64,000 nucleotides of DNA, from the NCBI GenBank assembly GCA_943788135.1, contig CALSPC010000007.1:124001-188000 (forward strand). The letters run 5' to 3'. Under the pieces are notes generated by a model. It did not search any database. It was not told where the DNA came from and worked only from the letters and a program-made list of their open reading frames with translations. The translations under genes and the position numbers were made by a program. The stretch is from an uncultured Paracoccaceae bacterium. GTDB taxonomy: Bacteria; Bacteroidota; Bacteroidia; Flavobacteriales; Flavobacteriaceae. Shown one piece after another: positions 28,776 through 40,775 of this stretch. Positions within the stretch are counted from its first letter, which is position 1. Every line of letters starts with the position of its first letter.

Positions 28776-30935
28776 TTATCTTAACTTGGGGAAAGCGCTA
28801 GGGTCAACTTCGTGAAACATTGAATAAACTTTTTCAAAAACATCGTCACTTGACGGTTTACTGAAGTAATCACCGTCAGAACCATATGCAGGGCGGTGTT
28901 CTTTTGCCGTAAGTACTTGTGGTTTGCTATCTAAATTTTGATAAACTTCCTGATGTTGTAATATTTCATTGAGTATATATGCAGAAGCGCCTCCAGGAAC
29001 ATCTTCATCGACAATAAGCAAACGGTTTGTTTTTTCGATACTTTTAGAAATCTCTTTTTGAAGATCAAAAGGAATTAAAGATTGAATATCAATGATTTCA
29101 ACATCGATATCAACTTCAAGTAATTCTTTTGCAGCGTGCTCAACGACGCGTAGGGTAGATCCATAAGAAACAATCGTAAGATCTGCTCCGTATTTGATCG
29201 TTTCAATAATCCCTACTGGTGTTTTAAATTCACCCAAATTCGAGGGTTCTTTTTCTTTTAATCGGTAGCCATTTAAGCATTCTACAACCATCGCAGGTTG
29301 ATCACTTTCTAACAGTGTATTATAAAACCCTGCTGCTTTTGTCATATTTCTAGGCACCAATACAAACACACCTCTGATAAGATTAAGAATACCTCCGAGC
29401 TGTGATCCAGAATGCCATATCCCTTCTAAACGATGCCCACGAGTTCGAATAATTAATGGGGCTTTTTGTTTCCCTAATGTACGGTAATGCAATGTCGATA
29501 AATCATCACTTATGATTTGAAGCGCATAGAGCATATAATCGAGGTATTGAATTTCGGCTATTGGTCTCAAACCACGTAACGCCATTCCAATACCTTGCCC
29601 AATAATAGTCGCTTCACGAATTCCAGTATCTGAAACTCTTATCTCTCCATACTTTTCTTGTAAACCTTCCAAGCCTTGATTTACATCTCCAATTGTTCCC
29701 GTATCTTCTCCAAAAATTATTACTTCTGGATATTTGTTTAAAACTTTATCAAAATTATCTCTTAAAATAACGCGTCCATCAACTAATTTTGAAGTGCTAT
29801 CAAAAGTAGGAAGAACTTCAGGGATATTTGTCGCTCTTGAAGCAGATTCGCTATATAAAAGCGAACTGTATTTCGCTTGAATTTTTTCAAAATAGGAATT
29901 AATCCATGCTACTAATGCGTCTTTTGCTGCTGATTTTTCATGAACAAGATATTTTAATACATTTCGAGCTGTACTCAGAATATCTTTTTGTAAGGGTTCA
30001 TTAATACTTTCTAATTGTGAGACTATTTTGGTAATAAAAACGCTTTGAACTGCAGGTTTTGCTGCAGATTGTATAAGTTTTATAACCTCTTGCTTTTCTT
30101 TAAGAATAGGCTCAGAGAATTTTTTCCATGCATTTATTTTGCCTTCTCTTACCTTCTTTTTTAAATTTCGATCAATAGCCGTAATTTCATCTTCAGTAGC
30201 AATATTATTAGAAATAATCCAGTCTCTAAATTTTAGGTTACAGTCATTTGATTGTTCCCATTTTAAACGCTCAGTCGTTTTATATCTTTCATGAGATCCC
30301 GAAGTAGAATGCCCTTGTGGTTGTGTGAGCTCATTAACATGAATTAAAACAGGAATGTGCTCTGTTCTCGATAATTGACTGGCTTTTTGATAGGTATTAA
30401 TAAGTTCTACATAATCCCATCCTTTGACTCGTAATATTTCGTAGCCCTGATGTTCTGAATCTCTTTGAAACCCTTTTAAAATTTCAGAAATATTTTCTTT
30501 GGTTGTTTGGTGTTTTGCAGGAACAGAAATTCCGTAATCATCATCCCAAACACTAATCACCATGGGAACTTGAAGTACGCCGGCAGCATTAATAGTTTCA
30601 AAAAACACACCTTCGCTAGTACTCGCATTTCCAATAGTTCCCCAAGCGACTTCATTTCCTGAATTTGAAAATTTTTCTGCATCAATATCCTTTAGATTTC
30701 GATACACTTTTGAAGCTTGCGCTAAACCTAATAGTCGAGGCATTTGAGCCCCAGTAGGCGAAATATCTGAACTTGAATTTTTTTGTTGTGTTAAATTTTT
30801 CCAGTTATAATTATTATCTAATGAATGAGTTGTGAAATGGCCTCCCATCTGACGACCTGCACTCATAGGATCCTGATTAATATCTGTATTTCCATATAAA
30901 CCGGCAAAAAACTCCTCAATACTGAGTCTTTCCAA
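28776..30935 (-). CDS. 2-oxoacid dehydrogenase E1 alpha/beta fusion, main part (frameshifted)
   Basis: The larger part of a fused E1 component, about 715 residues. The alpha half contains the thiamine-diphosphate region [16 protein letters not shown] and DDDYGISVP. The beta half starts near [11 protein letters not shown], with [20 protein letters not shown] and [16 protein letters not shown]. The frame opens with an artificial TTG, and the real N-terminus is the next feature. A single-base insertion around 30926-30933 (GGAAAGACTC instead of GGAAGACTC on the minus strand) separates the two. Joined, they give about 803 residues. The enzyme would decarboxylate a branched-chain or other 2-oxoacid in a complex with E2 and lipoamide dehydrogenase. 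Confidence 0.85.
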
Positions 30936-31188
30936 TAGCCATCATAAAGGTTTGATCTCTATAATATCCAGATCTAAAATCGCCATTTTGAAATGCCTTA
31001 GCCCAAGCTAATTGTGGAAGTTCCTTTCCATCACCAAAAATACCAAACTTTGCCTTTCCTGTTAAAACTTCTCGCCTTCCCAGTAAGCTGCATTCTCTAC
31101 TAGTGACTGCTATAGTATAATCATTAAGTACTTCAGCTTTGAAGTCCTCAAATGTAATATCTTTAGTAAGGTCATTTTTAATCTGCAT
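30916..31188 (-). CDS. 2-oxoacid dehydrogenase E1 fusion, N-terminal fragment (frameshifted)
   Basis: Ninety codons encoding the start of the E1 protein, with [14 protein letters not shown] near the end, a well-conserved alpha-subunit segment. The frame then runs into KTQY and a stop. One base out of frame, the sequence continues as [12 protein letters not shown], exactly where the family sequence would go on. It overlaps the main part by 20 bases. A TATATTTG promoter element lies 23 bases upstream of its ATG. Either a real recent mutation or a sequencing error explains the break. Confidence 0.8.
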
Positions 31189-31211
31189 TGTAAACTATTT
31201 CTTTTGTGGTG

Positions 31212-31350: not shown

Positions 31351-34200
31351 TTAGAACCATTCTCTTCGGAATAACCCTAACAGAGCCTGAGGATCAGCCG
31401 TAAAAACAAATCGTATATTATCACTATAATTTGGTTGAGCAATTTCCCAACCCAGGTTTGAATAGAAAGGGAAGTGGATTTCAAAATAATCCGTTATTAA
31501 ATTTAAACGAATTCCAGCGTCATAAACGAATAAGGATGTATTGCCTTTATTTTTAAGAAAACCAATATCGCCGTAGGCTTGTATAAATTTCCAAATAGAC
31601 GCACTGGCATTTAATGTGGTCAACCACTGATTAGCAAAAGCAGTATCTAATTTTGATCTGAAGCCACCTTCAGCAATAATGAGTTGTTGACTAAATATTC
31701 CACTCGATTCAAATTGGCCTAAATAATTATAATCAAACAAATAATCCGTTGGTCGATCTAAAGCAAAATCAAAATTTTGCTCTCCCGCTGGAATTTTAGA
31801 ATATAAAAATGCCCCTGCATAAAATCTTAAGTTATAAAACTGATTTTTATTGGTACGACGTCTCACTTCAAAGTCAAATGAAAGCTTTCCGAAATCACTA
31901 GAAAATTGAGTGTCTAAAAACCATTGTTTATATTTTTTAAAGCCATTATAAGAATTTAAATACCTGATATTAAATATTTGATAGGGTGGCCCTGTTGATT
32001 CAGACGTTTCAGAGGTCGTAAAATCTTTTTCAATACCAACATATCTTATATTAAGTTTCTTAAAAGCATTTGACCTCAAATCAGAAGCATTTCTAAAATT
32101 GAAACTCAAGTAGGGGACTGTCTTTGTAACAAAAGCATTTTTCGCAAAACTCGAGCGCGATACAGACACTCCATATTTTATATTGTATAGGTTTTGATCT
32201 TCAAAGAAGTTTGTATATTGTAATTGAACAGAACCCGTTAAAGCTCTAGAACGTGTACTGAATGTAGGAGTAATTCCAAATATAAAAGGTTTACTTAAAA
32301 TGCCTTTGTTGTTGAAGTTAAGCCCCAAATCGACGCCGTCATAAATGTTTTGAAACTCAACTATAGGTAAAAAATACAACTGATGATCATGCGGAGATTC
32401 AAAGTCTTTGAACAGTCGAACCTGTAAGGGTTTGGTTAAAAGAGATTTTCCGTTTGCAGATTTCCAATTATTTCTCAAATCAAACTCAGGTACTTTTTGA
32501 TCGTAATTAAGCACTAAATGGTCTGCTTGATTATTTGCAACTACAAACTTCTTTTCGTTTTTAATTCCACTCAACCACTGTTTTGAAATGATTTCACCAT
32601 CTTTTAACATAAAAAGAGATACCGGTCGTTGCCCACTTTTTGTGTTTTTTACAGTAAAATATATCGAATCTTTAGTATTTTCTATGGAGGTGATTTTGTA
32701 ATCTACTTGTTTGGTGTTAGTAAGGAATGAATCAAAAAACCAATCTATATCTTTTGAGGTTTTAGTTTTTAAATACGTTTTAAAATCCTCAGTAGTTTTA
32801 TGGGGCTGATTTGGATTAAAAATAAACTCTTTCATCCACTCTTCTATAGTTGAACCCTGAATACGATTTTCAAGATACAATAGTCCCTTAGCTGCTTTGT
32901 ATTTGCTTGATAAGTTGGCATTAAATTTTAAAAGCTGATCTTTTGGTGTATTTAGGGCTTGATCTCGCCCCGTTCTGATCATATGTAAATAGGTTAAATG
33001 ATACTGATCATTAAACTTTAATTTGGCTAAATTATAGGATCGCAAGCCCCAAATATCTGACAAACTTCCAATTAATTTTTCGTCTTTGTAATGTTTTTCG
33101 ACATACTTCATCAATAGAATGTTCTCAAAACCAGATTGTAGCCAATGTTCTTCTCTAGGATTCATGCCTAAATGGCGATCCAAATACAAGCGTAACATAT
33201 TTTTTACAAGGGTAATCTCATATTTGAACTGCTTGGAAAATGGGGACAAAAAATCGGGTAGAATATTGAGACCATAAATAGGATATTTATCTAAATCTAA
33301 GGTTGTAATTAATACATTTTCGTGTGGATAGTTTGCAAGTTCTGCTTCTATAAAAGTTTTAACTTTATCAAGTATAATAATCTGTTCCGTAGAACTCAAT
33401 ACGGACTCATTATCGTTAGTAATAATAGTTAAGTTTTCAAAATTAACCTTTAAAAAAGGAGTTTTAGAAATATACAAGCGACTGTCGGTTCGGTTTTCAC
33501 CTATAAAAGTATAGGTGCTTTTTTGCTGTTGTGTTTGTTTAGCGTCTAAATTTAACTCAGAGGCTATATCGAAATACTCAGGAACAGTAATAGTTAGTTT
33601 TATAGTAGATTCAGGTGTATAATAATCATTAAGGTTCTTGTTACTGTACAATTTCCATTGAGAAGCTTCATATACTGCTGGAGTAAAATACCAGTAATTC
33701 AAGTTGAATTCTCCATTTTTAGTGACACCATAGCCCGTAAACTTATCGTTTTGGATTTGAATTGTATAATCAAAAACTAAAGTTGTGATTGCATCAGGTT
33801 TTAGAATTGAATCTAGGGTTACTTTAAACAGGTCAGGGTGTTGCTCTAAGTAGGTATAATTAAGAGAGTTATTCCTTAAATTTTGAATAGATCTAATTTT
33901 TGTATATCCACGATCTTTAGCTTTAACCGCTAGTAAATCTCCGTTAAACTCTTCTACAAATCGGTTAGCTAATGGAGTTGTAGGACTACTGAAACTAGAG
34001 GTCCAGTCGTTAAAATATAATTCACTTAAGTCCTCCTTTGAAGTGTTTTGATAATGGATGCGTTGTTTGATCGATATTGTATGATTATCTTCATTCAAGA
34101 ACGCCTCAATTTGCATCGTTTGTTGTCCAAAAACAGAACACAAATTTCCAAAAATAATAAGGCTAAAAAGGGGCTTAAATATCAGTCTTAGGTACAACAA
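31351..34200 (-). CDS. M1-peptidase-like protein without zinc site, fused to an outer-membrane barrel
   Basis: A 949-residue exported protein with a signal peptide ending near CSVFGQ. Residues about 28-590 follow the aminopeptidase M1 layout: a beta-sandwich N-domain, a catalytic-like domain and a helical segment with SKDIDWFFDSFL. Where M1 enzymes have HExxH the sequence is VKNML (332-336), and WLNEG is replaced by WLQSG (353-357), so all zinc ligands are gone. Residues about 620-949 are strand-rich and end in RREWF, like an outer-membrane beta-barrel. No ATG is available before the signal peptide, and the start is TTG at 34200 or 34197. A surface-binding or transport role is likely. It follows the LOG gene by 45 bases. 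Confidence 0.72.
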   Translation of the reverse strand: MLYLRLIFKPLFSLIIFGNLCSVFGQQTMQIEAFLNEDNHTISIKQRIHYQNTSKEDLSELYFNDWTSSFSSPTTPLANRFVEEFNGDLLAVKAKDRGYTKIRSIQNLRNNSLNYTYLEQHPDLFKVTLDSILKPDAITTLVFDYTIQIQNDKFTGYGVTKNGEFNLNYWYFTPAVYEASQWKLYSNKNLNDYYTPESTIKLTITVPEYFDIASELNLDAKQTQQQKSTYTFIGENRTDSRLYISKTPFLKVNFENLTIITNDNESVLSSTEQIIILDKVKTFIEAELANYPHENVLITTLDLDKYPIYGLNILPDFLSPFSKQFKYEITLVKNMLRLYLDRHLGMNPREEHWLQSGFENILLMKYVEKHYKDEKLIGSLSDIWGLRSYNLAKLKFNDQYHLTYLHMIRTGRDQALNTPKDQLLKFNANLSSKYKAAKGLLYLENRIQGSTIEEWMKEFIFNPNQPHKTTEDFKTYLKTKTSKDIDWFFDSFLTNTKQVDYKITSIENTKDSIYFTVKNTKSGQRPVSLFMLKDGEIISKQWLSGIKNEKKFVVANNQADHLVLNYDQKVPEFDLRNNWKSANGKSLLTKPLQVRLFKDFESPHDHQLYFLPIVEFQNIYDGVDLGLNFNNKGILSKPFIFGITPTFSTRSRALTGSVQLQYTNFFEDQNLYNIKYGVSVSRSSFAKNAFVTKTVPYLSFNFRNASDLRSNAFKKLNIRYVGIEKDFTTSETSESTGPPYQIFNIRYLNSYNGFKKYKQWFLDTQFSSDFGKLSFDFEVRRRTNKNQFYNLRFYAGAFLYSKIPAGEQNFDFALDRPTDYLFDYNYLGQFESSGIFSQQLIIAEGGFRSKLDTAFANQWLTTLNASASIWKFIQAYGDIGFLKNKGNTSLFVYDAGIRLNLITDYFEIHFPFYSNLGWEIAQPNYSDNIRFVFTADPQALLGLFRREWF

Positions 34201-34245
34201 TTTCGTTTTGTAGAATTAATAGCTTTTGAGTGCAATGAAAATTTA

Positions 34246-34935
34246 TTAAAAATTTGGACTTAATTTATATTCGTTATAGAAATTATTTAGAATACTAATG
34301 ACTTCTTCAGATGTGTCTACAACGTGAATTAAGTCTAAATCTTTTGCACTAATAGTTTCAAATTTTTCTAAAAGTGTGGCTTTGATCCATTCAAGTAACC
34401 CATTCCAAAAATGTGTACCCACTAAAATCACTGGAAATTTTTCAATTTTCTTAGTTTGGATTAAAGTAATTGCTTCAAACAATTCATCTAAAGTTCCAAA
34501 TCCACCAGGCATAACAACGATGCCTTGAGAATATTTGACAAACATCACTTTTCTCACAAAAAAGTAATCAAAATCTAAACTTTTATCGTCATCAATATAA
34601 GGGTTGTTGTGTTGCTCGAAAGGAAGTTCAATATTTAGGCCTACAGAAGTTCCTCCAGCAAGATGGGCACCTTTATTTCCAGCTTCCATAATTCCAGGAC
34701 CACCGCCTGTAATGACGCCATATCCAGCATCAACAATAGCACTAGCGACTTCTGTAGATAATTTATAATAGGCATCATCTGTTGGGGTTCTTGCTGATCC
34801 AAAAATTGAAACACATGGCCCAATTCTGCTCATCTTTTCAAACCCATTCACAAACTCTCCCATGATTTTAAATATCGCCCACGAGTCATTTGTTTTTATT
34901 TCATTCCATCTTTTGTGTTTCTGTTCCGGCCCCAT
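34246..34935 (-). CDS. LOG family protein (TIGR00730-like Rossmann fold)
   Basis: This 229-residue protein has the LOG signature GGGPGIMEAGNKGA and VMPGGFGTLDELFE, the latter including the PGGxGTxxE phosphoribohydrolase motif. Family members release free cytokinin-type bases from nucleoside monophosphates, or act on purine nucleotides, and the bacterial role is often unknown. Compared with the short LOG form it has an extra N-terminal helix (KTNDSWAIFKIMGEFVNGF). It lies 21 bases after uvrA in the same minus-strand run. Confidence 0.88.
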   Translation of the reverse strand: MGPEQKHKRWNEIKTNDSWAIFKIMGEFVNGFEKMSRIGPCVSIFGSARTPTDDAYYKLSTEVASAIVDAGYGVITGGGPGIMEAGNKGAHLAGGTSVGLNIELPFEQHNNPYIDDDKSLDFDYFFVRKVMFVKYSQGIVVMPGGFGTLDELFEAITLIQTKKIEKFPVILVGTHFWNGLLEWIKATLLEKFETISAKDLDLIHVVDTSEEVISILNNFYNEYKLSPNF

Positions 34936-34956
34936 AATTCAATTTTTTAATGCCTA

Positions 34957-37788
34957 CTAATGTAATTCTTTTTTTAAAAACCGAGCCGTATGACTTGATT
35001 TGTTTTTTATAATTGTTTCAGGAGTACCTTTAACAATAATTTCTCCTCCACCTTTACCACCCTCAAGGCCGATATCTATAATGTAATCTACAGTTTTAAT
35101 AACATCTAAATTATGTTCGATAATAATAACCGTATTTCCTTTATCTACCAATTTATTAAGAACGTCCATCAACACGCGAATATCTTCAAAATGAAGACCA
35201 GTTGTAGGCTCATCTAAAATATAAATTGTATTTCCCGTATCGCGTTTACTTAATTCTGAGGCAAGCTTAATACGTTGGGCTTCTCCTCCAGAGAGTGTTG
35301 TACTTTGTTGACCAAGAGTAATATAACCTAAACCAACTTCTTTAATAGTTTTTAATTTTCTGTGTATTTTTGGGATCATTTCAAAGAAATCTACACTTTC
35401 ATCGATAGTCATTTCCAAGACATCACTAATCGATTTCCCTTTATATCGGATTTCTAAAGTTTCTCTATTAAATCGTTTTCCTTGACAGGATTCACATTCT
35501 ACATATACATCTGGAAGAAAATTCATTTCAATCACTCTAAGCCCACCACCTTTACATGTTTCGCAACGCCCACCAACGACATTAAAACTGAATCGGCCTA
35601 ATTTATAGCCTCGAATCATTGCTTCAGGAATTTTGGCAAATAAGGCTCTAATTTCTCCAAAAACTCCAGTATATGTCGCAGGGTTACTTCGTGGTGTGCG
35701 TCCAATTGGAGATTGATTTATGTCGATGACTTTATCGAGGTGCTCTAACCCTTTAATTGATTTATAGGGCATAGGGGTCATAACCCCATTAAAATAATGA
35801 TTATTTAAAATAGGGTATAGCGTTTCGTTAATTAAGGTCGATTTCCCGCTTCCAGAAACTCCTGTTATCCCTATCATTTTGGCTAAGGGAAGTTTTATGG
35901 AAACATTTTTAAGGTTATTTCCAGTACAGCCTGTTAGTTCTAAAAATTTACCATTTCCAGGTCGCCGTGTTTTTGGAACTTCAATTTTTTGTATGCCACT
36001 TAAATAATCTGCTGTGACCGTTCTACTATTCAATAACTCTTTTGGTGTGCCTTGACTAATGATTTCTCCTCCATGTTTCCCTGCTTTGGGTCCAATATCG
36101 ATGACATGATCGGCTTGTTCAATCATATCTTTATCATGTTCTACTACAATTATTGAATTTCCAACATCTCTTAATGCAATCAAAGATTTGATTAGTTTTT
36201 CATTATCACGCTGATGTAAACCTATACTAGGTTCATCTAAAATATATAATACTCCTACAAGTTGAGATCCTATTTGCGTAGCCAATCGAATGCGTTGGGC
36301 TTCACCTCCAGAAAGCGATTTAGAACTTCTGTCAATTGTTAAATAATCCAATCCAACATCTAATAGAAACTGAAGTCTGGTAGATATTTCTTTTATAATT
36401 TCTTTTGATATTTGATTCTGACTATCCGACAAATATTTTGGTAATTCCTTAAACCAGTTGACTAAATCTACAACATCCATGTGAGATAGTTCGGCAATGT
36501 TTTTAGCGTTAACTTTAAAGTATAAGGATTCTTTTTTAAGTCGTGAGCCTTCACAAGTTGGACATTTAATTTTGTCCATATAGTTTTTAGCCCAGCGCTT
36601 AATTGAAGTGGAGTCGGCATTTTTGTATTGACTTTCTATAAAATTTGCAATCCCTTCAAAATTTATAACATAATTTCGTGAAACTCCTAAAGTTTTACTG
36701 TTCACTGAAAAATCATCTTTGCCGCCATATAATATAATTTCTAAGGCTTCTTTGGGAATTGTTGATATAGGATCTGAAAGTTTAAATTTATAGCGCTGTG
36801 CAATGAGCTCTAATTGTTTAAATATCCATGAATCTTTCTGAGCGCCTTGAGGAGCCAACCCCCCATTTTTTATGGATAGCGACTTATCAGGAATAATTTT
36901 TGATTCATTAACTTTATAAAGCGTTCCAATTCCACTACAATCCGAACATGCACCTTTGGGAGAGTTAAATGAGAAGTTATTAGGCTCTGGGTTTGGGTAG
37001 GAGATTCCTGAAGTTGGACACATCAAATCACGACTAAAATAACGGACTTCTTTGCTGTCTTCATCAATGACCATCAGTATATTTTCCCCGTGATACATCG
37101 CCGTATTTATGCTTTCACTTAGTCTACTTGTAGCTTGTGTGTTGCTATCAATTTTAAGCCTGTCAATAACAATTTCGATGTCGTGCGTTTTATAACGATC
37201 AAGCTTCATTCCTTTAGATATATCAACAATCACCCCATCTGTTCTGACTTTTACAAAGCCTTGTTTTGCAATCTGTTCAAAAAGCTCTCTATAATGTCCT
37301 TTTCGTGAGCGAATAACCGGTGCTAAAATCGAAATGCGTTTTCCCTGAAAAGATTCAAGTATAAGGGCTTTGATTTGTTCATCGTTATAACTCACCATTT
37401 TTTCATTTGTGTTATAACTATAGGCATCAGCTCCTCTTGCAAATAGGAGTCTTAAAAAATCATAAATTTCGGTAATAGTTCCAACTGTGGAGCGTGGCGA
37501 CTTGCTGGTCGTCTTTTGTTCAATCGCAATTACTGGGGATAACCCATCAATTTTATCAACATCTGGACGCTCTAAACTTCCTAAAAACTGACGCGCATAA
37601 GCAGAAAATGTTTCAATGTAACGGCGTTGACCTTCCGCGTAGATCGTATCAAATGCCAGTGAAGATTTGCCACTTCCAGAGAGCCCTGTAACTACAACTA
37701 GCTGGTCACGTGGTATCTTTACATCAATGTTTTTCAAATTGTGTACTCTAGCACCCTTTACTTCAATAAATTCATCAACCTTGCTCAT
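34957..37788 (-). CDS. uvrA: UvrABC excinuclease subunit A
   Basis: A 943-residue DNA-damage sensor with two ABC ATPase modules. Walker A motifs are GLSGSGKSS (residues 35-43) and GVSGSGKST in the second half. The ABC signatures are SLSGGEAQR and TLSGGEAQR, and zinc-binding cysteine clusters are CSDCSG, CPTCEG, CETCKG and CESCQG. UvrA recognises bulky lesions with UvrB in nucleotide excision repair. uvrB is not in the window. Length and motif order are normal. It belongs to a minus-strand run with a UvrD-type helicase and a TsaC-like gene. Confidence 0.97.
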
Positions 37789-37820
37789 ATCGTTTGCGAT
37801 CAGCGCCTAATAATTCGTAA

Positions 37821-38441
37821 TTAAAATATATCAATACTTCCTTTTCCTTCTCTAACAATAGTAATTTCAGATCCCTTGACTTCCAAAACAGTTGAAGGCT
37901 GGTTGTCGCCATAACCGCCATCAATAACCAAATCAACCTTAGAACTCCATTTTTCATGTATCAATTCGGGATCTGTAGTGTACTCCAAAATAGCATCTTC
38001 GTCATGAATTGATGTTGAGACGATAGGGTTGCCTAATGCTTCAACAATGTTCAAAGCTATAGAATTATCAGGAATACGAATTCCAACAGTCTTCTTTTTC
38101 TTGAAAGGATAGGGCAAAGAATTTGCTCCCGGAAGAATAAACGTATAGGGTCCTGGAAGTGTTCGTTTCAAAAGTTTAAATATGGGGGTTTCGATTTGGG
38201 TCACATAATCGCTCAAATTACTTAAATCATGACAGATAAAAGAGAAGTTAGAGCGCTCTAATTTAACCCCCTTTATTTTGGCGATTCGATCCAAGGCTTT
38301 AACATTGGTAATATCACAACCCAATCCATACACTGTATCGGTTGGATAGATAATTAGCCCACCCTTTTTAAGCACATCCACAACGTTTTGGATCGCTTTT
38401 GGATTAGGGTTTTCAGGATATATTTTGAGAAGTTCTGCCAT
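37821..38441 (-). CDS. L-threonylcarbamoyladenylate synthase (TsaC/Sua5/YciO family)
   Basis: This 206-residue YrdC-fold protein begins with the segment GGLIIYPTDTVYGLGCDI. It contains the family hallmark KRTLPGPYTFILPG and ends with STVLEVKGSEITIVREGKG. Family members make threonylcarbamoyl-AMP for the t6A modification of ANN-decoding tRNAs, although YciO-type paralogues may not. It lies 12 bases after the UvrD-type helicase gene and 32 before uvrA. Confidence 0.9.
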   Translation of the reverse strand: MAELLKIYPENPNPKAIQNVVDVLKKGGLIIYPTDTVYGLGCDITNVKALDRIAKIKGVKLERSNFSFICHDLSNLSDYVTQIETPIFKLLKRTLPGPYTFILPGANSLPYPFKKKKTVGIRIPDNSIALNIVEALGNPIVSTSIHDEDAILEYTTDPELIHEKWSSKVDLVIDGGYGDNQPSTVLEVKGSEITIVREGKGSIDIF

Positions 38442-38453
38442 AGTCGTTTTGAT

Positions 38454-40775
38454 TTACGATAGAATTTCAAGTTTCGCAAATCGGAGTAAAAGCTTTTTAC
38501 TTCCGCCATTTTCAAATTTAATTTCTGCTTTTAAATCTGCGGCTTTTCCTTCAATACTCAATACCGTTCCTTTTCCAAACCGTTGATGATTTACAGTATC
38601 TCCAACAATTAATTTAGTATCAAGGATGTTAGACGATGATTTTGTGTCACTAATTTTTTTAAAGTTTTTTGGCGTAGATAGTTTAAATTTCTCAGCGGGC
38701 TTTGGTTTCTTTTTCATGTAAGCAGGCTTTTTATAACGCACCGTATTAGTATCGATATCTCCAAAAATATCGGCACTTAACATGGGATTGAAACGCCGTT
38801 CTTCTTTTGGAGTTACAATTTCTAGATATTGTTCATCTATTTCTTCAATAAATCGGCTTGGCTCTGAATCTACAAGTTTCCCCCAACGGTAACGGGATAG
38901 GGCATAGGTTAGGTAGGCTTGTTTTTCGGCACGTGTCAAAGCGACATAAAACAAACGGCGTTCTTCTTCAAGTTCATCTCGAGTATTCATACTCATAGCA
39001 CTCGGAAAAAAATCTTCCTCTAAGCCCACAATAAAGACATACTCAAACTCTAAGCCTTTTGCTAAGTGAATGGTCATAAGTGCGACTTTATCGCTGTCGT
39101 CACCTTCTTCATTATCTAAATCCGTAGCAAGCGCTACATCTTCTAAAAACTCCGCTATCGATCCCGTAGAATCCGCAAGTTCTTGTTGACCTTCAACAAA
39201 ATCTTTAATACCATTCAGCAATTCTTCGATGTTTTCCATACGATTAATACCTTCTGGAGTGCCATCTTTTTTAAACTCTTGAATCAATCCCGTAGCTTTA
39301 CAAACATGCTCTGCTAAATCAAAGGCATTTGCGGTCTGACTCATCACCTTAAAACTTTCGATCATGGTGGTGAAGTTTTGCAGTTTAGTTTTGGTGCCTG
39401 CATTAATGTTTATTGGTAATTCATTAAGGTGTTTTAGAATTTCAAAAATTGTTTTGTTATGTTCATTTGCAGAAACAATTAAACGATCAACCGTAGTTTG
39501 TCCAATTCCACGTCCTGGGAAATTAATAATACGCTTCAAGGCTTCTTCATCTGAAGGATTTATAATAAGCCGTAAATAGGAAAGTACATCTTTGATTTCT
39601 TTACGCTGATAAAATGATAAGCCGCCATAAATACGATATTCTAGGCCTCGTTTTCTCAAAGCATCTTCAATAGAACGGGATTGTGCATTGGTACGGTACA
39701 ACACTGCAAAATCACCATTTTTGGCTTGGTTTTGCATCTTGTTATCAAAAATCGTACTTGCAATATAGCGTCCTTCATCGCCATCGGTCAATGATCGGTT
39801 GACAATGATTTTTTCACCTTCTTCATTGGCCGTCCAAACGACTTTATCTAACTTGGTTTGATTTTTTTCAATAATCGAATTTGCAGCATTAACAATGTTT
39901 TTAGTGGAGCGGTAGTTTTGTTCCAATCGAAACAGTTTTACATTGTCATAATCCTTTTGGAAATTCAAAATATTATTGATGTTTGCTCCTCTAAAAGCAT
40001 AGATACTTTGGGCGTCATCTCCAACCACACAAATGTTCTGAAACCGGTCCGAAAGCGCACGCACAATAAGGTATTGCGAATGGTTTGTATCTTGATACTC
40101 ATCGACAAGAATATATCGGAAACGATCTTGATATTTCGCCAATACTTCAGGAAATCGTGTAATTAATTCATTGGTTTTAAGCAGTAAATCATCAAAATCC
40201 ATAGCACCAGCTTTGAAACATCTAGACACATACTCCTTATAAATTTCGCCCATTTCTGGACGCTTAGCCATAACATCAGCCTCTTTAAGCTCTGGGTTTT
40301 GAAAATAGGCTTTAACGGTAATTAAACTGTTTTTATACGCTGAAATTCGCGACTGAACTTGTTTGTATTTATAAATATCTTTGTCTAATTTCTTTTCTTT
40401 GATTATCGACGAAATCAAACGTTGTGAGTCTTGAGTGTCATAAATTGTGAAATTTGAAGGATAGCCAAGCTTATCGGCTTCAAAACGTAATATTTTCGCA
40501 AATACAGAGTGGAAGGTTCCCATCCATAAGTTCTTAGCTTCGCTGTCTCCCACAATTGTCGAAATTCGCGTTTTCATCTCACGAGCCGCCTTGTTGGTAA
40601 AGGTCAGGGAAAGAATATTAAAGGGGTCGACACCTTCGCTCATCAAATAGGCGATGCGGTAGGTGAGGACTCTGGTTTTTCCAGAACCAGCACCTGCGAT
40701 AATAATCATTGGTCCTTCTTTTTGAAGGGTTGGCGCTAATTGGGCCTCGTTAAGTTGACTTAAATACTGTTTCAA
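38454..40775 (-). CDS. UvrD/PcrA-type ATP-dependent DNA helicase
   Basis: A 773-residue superfamily 1A helicase. Walker A is AGAGSGKTRVL (residues 27-37). It then has LTFTNKAAREMK, the DEYQDTN motif II, GDDAQSIYAFRGA, the LEQNYRS motif IV and VALMTIHLAKGLEF. The C-terminal region KLIVGDTVNHQRFGKGTVLS is a PcrA/UvrD tail. It unwinds DNA in excision and mismatch repair and removes RNA polymerase or RecA from DNA. It leads a five-gene minus-strand run ending with the dead-peptidase fusion. Confidence 0.95.
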   Translation of the reverse strand: MKQYLSQLNEAQLAPTLQKEGPMIIIAGAGSGKTRVLTYRIAYLMSEGVDPFNILSLTFTNKAAREMKTRISTIVGDSEAKNLWMGTFHSVFAKILRFEADKLGYPSNFTIYDTQDSQRLISSIIKEKKLDKDIYKYKQVQSRISAYKNSLITVKAYFQNPELKEADVMAKRPEMGEIYKEYVSRCFKAGAMDFDDLLLKTNELITRFPEVLAKYQDRFRYILVDEYQDTNHSQYLIVRALSDRFQNICVVGDDAQSIYAFRGANINNILNFQKDYDNVKLFRLEQNYRSTKNIVNAANSIIEKNQTKLDKVVWTANEEGEKIIVNRSLTDGDEGRYIASTIFDNKMQNQAKNGDFAVLYRTNAQSRSIEDALRKRGLEYRIYGGLSFYQRKEIKDVLSYLRLIINPSDEEALKRIINFPGRGIGQTTVDRLIVSANEHNKTIFEILKHLNELPININAGTKTKLQNFTTMIESFKVMSQTANAFDLAEHVCKATGLIQEFKKDGTPEGINRMENIEELLNGIKDFVEGQQELADSTGSIAEFLEDVALATDLDNEEGDDSDKVALMTIHLAKGLEFEYVFIVGLEEDFFPSAMSMNTRDELEEERRLFYVALTRAEKQAYLTYALSRYRWGKLVDSEPSRFIEEIDEQYLEIVTPKEERRFNPMLSADIFGDIDTNTVRYKKPAYMKKKPKPAEKFKLSTPKNFKKISDTKSSSNILDTKLIVGDTVNHQRFGKGTVLSIEGKAADLKAEIKFENGGSKKLLLRFAKLEILS

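Follow-up and report, generated by a model that had tools for sequence, protein, structure and literature searches.

The M1 metallopeptidases (PF01433; tricorn factor F3, LTA4H, aminopeptidase N, ERAP and IRAP among them) hold zinc at an HExxH site whose first histidine is separated by 23 residues from the glutamate ligand, and many of these enzymes also carry a helical domain IV. The same fold occurs in pseudopeptidases: TAF2 is an inactive M1 fold, Tma108 presumably lacks catalysis as well, and both are, to our knowledge, eukaryotic and not outer-membrane proteins. Periplasmic metalloproteases of the BepA type, which assist the BAM complex, belong to M48 and are separate proteins without a barrel; their likeness to the protein described here lies in its proposed role, that of outer-membrane quality control with a chaperone-like function. 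The Omp85 superfamily, finally, is typically marked by a closed barrel of 16 strands whose long loop 6, joining strands 11 and 12, carries a VRGF/Y motif, by one or more POTRA domains, and by work in the assembly or translocation of proteins.

The substrate pocket of Tma108 binds nascent chains, as stated in the available part of PMC11266112. Omp85 proteins with other N-terminal domains, or with none (PlpD, and the ‘Metallo’ and ‘noNterm’ groups described in the available part of PMC4104836), resemble the protein considered here, as it is modelled, in their 16 strands, in the long conserved loop that joins strands 11 and 12, in an enzyme-type N-terminus, and in being exported. The ‘Metallo’ group in that source corresponds to PF00149 rather than to M1, and the word ‘peptidase’ does not occur in the available part of its text. 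Among the open-licence PMC papers listed in literature searches, no title or abstract opening mentions an M1-Omp85 or M1-barrel fusion.

The gene that is the subject of this analysis (the ‘target’) lies in a window of 64,000 nucleotides, the whole stretch of DNA that was analysed, from a 1.9 Mb genome assembly assigned to the Flavobacteriaceae. Its product shares the M1 fold across residues 25-600; unlike the M1 enzymes it is without their catalytic and zinc residues, and a barrel stands in the place of helical domain IV. Like TAF2 and Tma108 it is an M1 fold that presumably works without catalysis. It differs from the Omp85 superfamily in being without a POTRA domain (which PlpD possesses), the VRGF/Y motif and a sequence-profile match, and for these reasons its barrel is termed Omp85-like and is not assigned to that superfamily. 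The reading favoured here, at a probability of roughly 0.55, is that the protein is a POTRA-less, Omp85-like envelope factor with a degenerate M1 domain in the periplasm that probably binds polypeptide, and that its zinc site was lost once within the order Flavobacteriales.

Layout of the gene and its M1-like half

The features assigned to the target are as follows, with coordinates given on the window.

31351..34200, minus strand: whole gene, 949 aa, TTG start (open reading frame list; full-length homologues)
34126..34200, minus strand: signal peptide, residues 1-25 (by eye; hydrophobic N-termini of relatives)
33586..34125, minus strand: M1 N-terminal beta-sheet domain, residues 26-205 (structure model)
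32701..33417, minus strand: thermolysin-like catalytic domain of the M1 type in degenerate form, residues 262-500 (structure model; weak Peptidase_M1 matches of family members)
33256..33282, minus strand: PIYGLNILP, residues 307-315, opposite GGMEYP of intact relatives, with a three-residue uncertainty in register (alignments)
33190..33204, minus strand: KNMLR, residues 333-337, at the place of HExxH (alignment with intact relatives)
33133..33135, minus strand: S356, where intact relatives have the Glu zinc ligand, WLQSG standing against W-x-[DN]-E-G (alignment)
32902..32904, minus strand: K433, opposite the catalytic Tyr that all 41 intact rows possess (alignments)
32446..32700, minus strand: Ig-like beta domain, residues 501-585 (structure model)
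31402..32376, minus strand: Omp85-like barrel, 16 predicted strands, residues 609-933 (structure models)
31627..31797, minus strand: long loop joining strands 11 and 12 (residues 802-858), positioned like loop 6 of Omp85 (model and conservation)

TTG was chosen as the start in 56 of 77 family loci (some of them duplicates), though the start picker favoured ATG; in the window protein, whose TTG occupies 34198-34200, the first ATG does not occur before residue 29, behind the signal peptide. A conserved lipobox cysteine is absent, as judged by eye, from the N-terminus of the window protein's family.

The window protein returned no match of any kind from Pfam or NCBIfam at E<=1 (the cut-off of PF01433 was not reached), and a sequence search of solved chains returned none either for the protein (E<=1) or for its profile (E<=10). 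Peptidase_M1 was matched weakly by 18 of the 29 members of alignment A1 (from which L078 was excluded), with a best E of 3.1e-4. A plasmid collection searched with the target gene likewise gave no match. An AlphaFold2 model built on 29 sequences (mean pLDDT 75) displays a clear M1 fold, as the first-pass annotation had expected from the sequence: residues 25-600 superimpose best upon tricorn factor F3 (3q7j; VIA-align Z 25.3, rmsd 3.7, 453 residues aligned), followed by IRAP, LTA4H and ERAP, with M1 structures spanning Z 22.6-25.3 among the 50 matches listed. The N-terminal saddle sheet, the thermolysin-like domain and the Ig-like domain of M1 peptidases are all present in the model. A Foldseek search with the whole model also matched 7edx_B, from a TFIID entry, a chain that we take to be TAF2.

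The same annotation had read HExxH as replaced by VKNML and WLNEG by WLQSG, with the loss of all three zinc ligands. That loss is upheld, as is the second replacement, in which S356 (within HWLQSG) occupies the place of the glutamate ligand at the first-His-to-Glu spacing of 23; the register of the first was off by one residue, and alignment with intact relatives places K333-N334-M335-L336-R337 opposite HExxH. The motif GGMEYP aligns either to GLNILP or to PIYGLN, three columns apart, depending on the alignment used, and its glutamate is lost either way. The window protein is thus missing the base Glu, both His, the Glu ligand, the GxMEN-type Glu and the Tyr, while the four site residues, the M and E of GGMEYP, and the catalytic Tyr are invariant in 41 of 41 intact rows.

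Among the 136 rows of the target family the zinc site is intact in 41 and lost in 95, and none of the latter keeps the full set. Single site letters survive in 15 of the 95 zinc-less rows, with the first His kept in 3, the second His in 6, and the Glu ligand in 7. One protein, L039, has Lys in place of the first His and retains the base Glu, the second His and the Glu ligand; in L252, L253 and L260 the first His alone survives, within AHARA. Replacement residues differ between the zinc-less subclades. Lys occupies the place of the first His in 65 of the 95 rows and Asp that of the Glu in 45, with both present in 40, and this pair could perhaps form a salt bridge that substitutes for zinc; the window protein has Ser at the Asp position.

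Distribution and descent

Matches to the target at E<=1e-3 were found in 52 of 60 relatives, and at E<=1e-10 in 129 of 149 Bacteroidia genomes, both counts including M1-only matches. The gene occurs in only part of the Flavobacteriales, where 110 of 196 genomes match it at E<=1e-20, and one genome of the same family as the window genome (G033) gave no match to it. The 25 best-scoring class-level loci (L086-L110) all possess an intact HExxH and W-x-DEG. Zinc-less and intact members are colinear (HHalign probability 100, E 5e-121, columns 9-942), and the Pfam Peptidase_M1 cut-off was passed by all nine intact relatives scanned (eight of the target family and one of the L129 type described below). 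In three genomes of another Flavobacteriales family a zinc-less and an intact copy occur together (L245/L246, L247/L248 and L249/L250).

The phylogenetic analysis used an alignment of 143 rows: the 136 of the target family (from which duplicates L004, L052-L056, L058 and L069, the L129-type L051, and the fragment L074 were left out, and within which L081 and L085 are duplicate rows) and seven of the L129-type sister family, which served as the outgroup. In a tree from which the zinc-site columns were excluded, all 95 zinc-less proteins fall into a single clade with an SH-aLRT of 100, which is nested among intact members and accounted for by one change. The sister of that clade is L045, an intact protein (support 99 in a thinned tree), whose gene adjoins the same dehydrogenase gene as the target. 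Thinning removed 30 of the 143 rows in one tree and restored them in the next; support values throughout are SH-aLRT from quick searches, computed without bootstrap, and the tree programs flagged L050 as a long branch, and L039 and L273 as a pair of long branches that meet. A tree of the barrel only (134 rows, excluding L050, L088 and the seven outgroup rows) gave two changes, or one if starred branches alone are counted.

Homologues with an intact HExxH in register had been named in the first-pass annotation as evidence that would count against a dead domain. Such homologues do exist (41 of 136 rows), and they lie outside one well-supported zinc-less clade, so that they point to descent from an enzyme and do not refute that claim. 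The window protein would be one member of a pseudopeptidase lineage of apparently single origin, spread across several families of one order.

The sister family (L129:5789-8989 on the minus strand, and L215-L244) comprises proteins of 1065-1133 aa from many Bacteroidia families, in which an intact M1 domain precedes an Omp85-like C-terminus. Of 31 rows, 29 were kept (L223 and L241 being missed by the motif filter), and the zinc site is intact in all 29. The C-terminus of L129 matches the BamA model TIGR03303 (E 1.1e-7), in agreement with a match to PF01103 (Omp85) of 34 bits in the genome profile search, although hmmscan of the protein or of its C-terminus gave no match to the latter; loop 6 carries GG...RG[YF] in the 29 rows (GGGLNLRGY in L129). 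The family thus differs from the target in its intact zinc site and in a barrel that, in L129, is recognised as Omp85/BamA-like, and is homologous to it in the M1 core and the junction: alignment with the intact target family extends up to approximately the first barrel strand (HHalign probability 100, E 1.1e-88), and the M1-to-barrel junction aligns with that of zinc-less members as well (E 1.5e-21). That the junction can be aligned between both families suggests that they descend from a single ancestral M1-Omp85 fusion.

The predicted carboxy-terminal barrel

The C-terminal barrel ending in an aromatic residue that had been proposed from the sequence is supported by the model, which contains 16 predicted strands (residues 609-933, the last of them only four residues long) ahead of a terminus that reads ...RREWF; together with the M1 fold and the loss of the zinc site, it supports the earlier description of a predicted outer-membrane barrel to which a dead M1 domain is joined. 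Folded alone, residues 585-949 gave a model of moderate confidence (mean pLDDT 69), in which the final 15 residues and some of the long loop score below 50. A loop of 57 residues joins strands 11 and 12, at the point where Omp85 proteins carry loop 6, and both this placing and the number of strands fit Omp85 in the two models; the loop contains IIAEGGFRSKL, and the VRGF/Y motif is absent from it. No POTRA domain is present in the model, in which 23 residues (586-608) separate the Ig-like domain from strand 1.

In a Foldseek search with the barrel alone, the best 50 of 625 matches are all Omp85 proteins or complexes built on one, as judged from entry titles and chain lengths (best E 9.3e-6; E<=0.001 in 28 of those 50). 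VIA-align separates the candidates less clearly: Sam50 stands on top at Z 16.2, and TonB receptors, OprD-type porins and MOMP follow at Z 13-14.5. The barrel therefore resembles Omp85 proteins more nearly than porins by the first method, as far as a predicted structure can be compared. Pfam returned no Omp85 match for the window barrel, and HHalign against the barrels of BamA and TamL gave at most 1.3%, a weak test because even the recognisable L129 barrel scores only 0.3-10% in it; a wider profile comparison with BamA, TamL, TonB receptors and PorP/SprF failed to discriminate. The genome's own DUF5686 protein, considered as a relative of the barrel, was unsupported (HHalign probability 1.1%).

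The closeness of those non-Omp85 Z scores to the best Omp85 row, and the want of a sequence match to Omp85, are what would be expected if the barrel had no kinship with Omp85 and were a transport channel, porin-like or of another kind, with the dead M1 domain acting as a periplasmic plug, an anchor, or a solute- or peptide-binding module that feeds it. That explanation is unlikely, given that the best Foldseek matches are uniformly Omp85, that the models agree with Omp85 in strand number and in where the long conserved loop lies, and that the L129 family joins a recognisable Omp85 barrel to an M1 domain at about the same place. A likeness to Omp85 rather than to porins would put the M1 domain in the periplasm, and would favour the assembly or handling of proteins over binding at the cell surface. 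The earlier suggestion of a binding or transport module at the outer membrane is plausible.

A barrel with an even number of strands has its N- and C-termini on one side, the periplasmic one. This arrangement argues against the M1 domain being carried through the barrel to the cell surface, in the manner of type V secretion, to serve as an external binding module or decoy; PlpD was read in that way in early work (available part of PMC4104836), and its patatin domain was later found to remain periplasmic (available part of PMC11116518), so that PlpD now offers a precedent for the opposite orientation and a surface location is very unlikely.

The favoured reading, of an Omp85-like envelope factor, can be set out as a sequence of proposed events. 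An ancestral Bacteroidia protein would have combined an exported M1 metallopeptidase with an outer-membrane barrel of 16 strands, Omp85-like and without POTRA; the zinc site would then have been lost once, in an ancestor within the Flavobacteriales, whose descendants (the target included) kept the full domain layout. Should the barrel share the orientation of Omp85 proteins, the dead M1 domain would reside in the periplasm at the mouth of the barrel, in the place that POTRA domains take in BamA and TamA. There, its degenerate cleft may bind polypeptide segments or a partner protein and either present them to the barrel or act as a scaffold at it, and the conserved loop 6 and last strands of the barrel might carry out assembly, translocation or quality control, with outer-membrane proteins or lipoproteins as possible substrates. 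The computations bear directly on the architecture, the homology, the confinement of the loss to one clade, the shift in conservation and the purifying selection, from which a periplasmic orientation, the binding of peptides and a part in outer-membrane biogenesis are inferred. Several observations count against this reading: the want of a sequence match to Omp85 and of the VRGF/Y motif, the moderate confidence of the barrel model, the Z scores of other barrels, the two changes in the barrel-only tree, the exceptional pairs L047/L264 and L008/L011 described below, the site residues kept by L039, and the patchy presence of the gene in the order. In a broader and more tentative proposal, the two families would represent an unnamed Bacteroidia class of POTRA-less M1-Omp85 proteins, of which the intact members would be periplasmic proteases tethered to the outer membrane for quality control, and the zinc-less members, after one ancestral loss in the Flavobacteriales, a receptor or chaperone with a working barrel, which would add to BamA and TamL another factor for outer-membrane assembly or translocation.

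The BAM machinery of this phylum is heavily remodelled (available part of PMC12611786), and if the barrel is of the Omp85 type, the Flavobacteriaceae gain a further POTRA-less candidate for outer-membrane biogenesis. BamM of the Flavobacterium johnsoniae BAM complex was considered as possibly the same protein and was ruled out, because it is described in the available part of that source as a lipoprotein with a prolyl-isomerase fold.

Conservation, selection and gene neighbourhood

The two halves of the protein were compared in separate pairwise alignments, using hand-picked groups (32, 7, 18, 10, 19 and 7 rows), from each of which up to 80 pairs were drawn at random. The barrel is the more similar half, compared with the M1 core, in 73 of 80, 21 of 21 and 80 of 80 pairs from three zinc-less groups (174 of 181 in total); in two intact groups this is true of 0 of 45 and 0 of 80 pairs (0 of 125), and in the L129 family of 0 of 21, the M1 domain being the more alike in all 21. 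An exception outside the groups is the intact pair L047/L264 (barrel 0.81, M1 0.76), which is near the zinc-less clade, so that the shift may precede the loss of zinc. Conservation of the N-terminal sheet and of the M1 core falls from 2.91 and 2.82 bits in intact rows to 1.69 and 1.80 bits in zinc-less ones. Of nine stretches compared, that of loop 6 is the best conserved in the zinc-less clade, at 2.69 bits (2.09 in intact rows). These alignments suggest a move of selection, once zinc was lost, away from the enzyme half and towards the barrel half. Such a shift is a measurable trace of a change in function, and one for which intact sister lineages allow comparison.

Purifying selection persists on both halves. 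In seven pairs from the window's genus, dN/dS is 0.074-0.157 for the dead M1 core and 0.032-0.121 for the barrel (rough values, since dS exceeds 1 in some comparisons), with the barrel exceeding the M1 core in a single pair (L008/L011); values of 0.07-0.16 indicate that the dead domain is maintained.

Strong selection of this kind on the M1 core, the frequent polar pair of Lys and Asp at the former zinc site, and the three of four site residues retained by L039 might also be expected of a domain that is still an enzyme, employing some other chemistry or another metal site. This too is very unlikely: all catalytic and zinc residues are gone from the window protein, the replacements vary from one subclade to another, and conservation of the M1 core has dropped below that of the barrel. 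Gene decay or an artefact of sequencing might be suspected from the frameshift in the dehydrogenase gene next door and from one relative genome (G343), in which the gene is split over two contig pieces and one of them contains a stop in frame; it is largely refuted by the same-family rows, whose frames are open over 937-985 aa, and by dN/dS far below 1.

Across 29 titled loci, a gene for a TIGR00730-type protein adjoins the target in 28 and a dehydrogenase gene in 27 (L074 and L066 being cut by contig ends). One of these two neighbours is kept in 5 of 12 Flavobacteriales loci from outside the window's family (L129 being one of the twelve), and neither in any of eight class-level loci. The neighbourhood was considered as a functional clue and set aside; it is conserved, and consists of housekeeping genes with no evident link to the target.

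Within the window, a tightly spaced run of genes on the minus strand (31351-40775) ends in the target and is conserved in close relatives; from inspection by eye, it presumably encodes a UvrD/Rep-type helicase, SUA5, UvrA, the TIGR00730-type protein and the target itself. Downstream, the gene for a 2-oxoacid dehydrogenase E1 component (28776-31194, minus strand) contains a frameshift near 30928 that is either real or an assembly error, and residues 1-89 of the orthologue at L052 match the other frame at 31194-30928.
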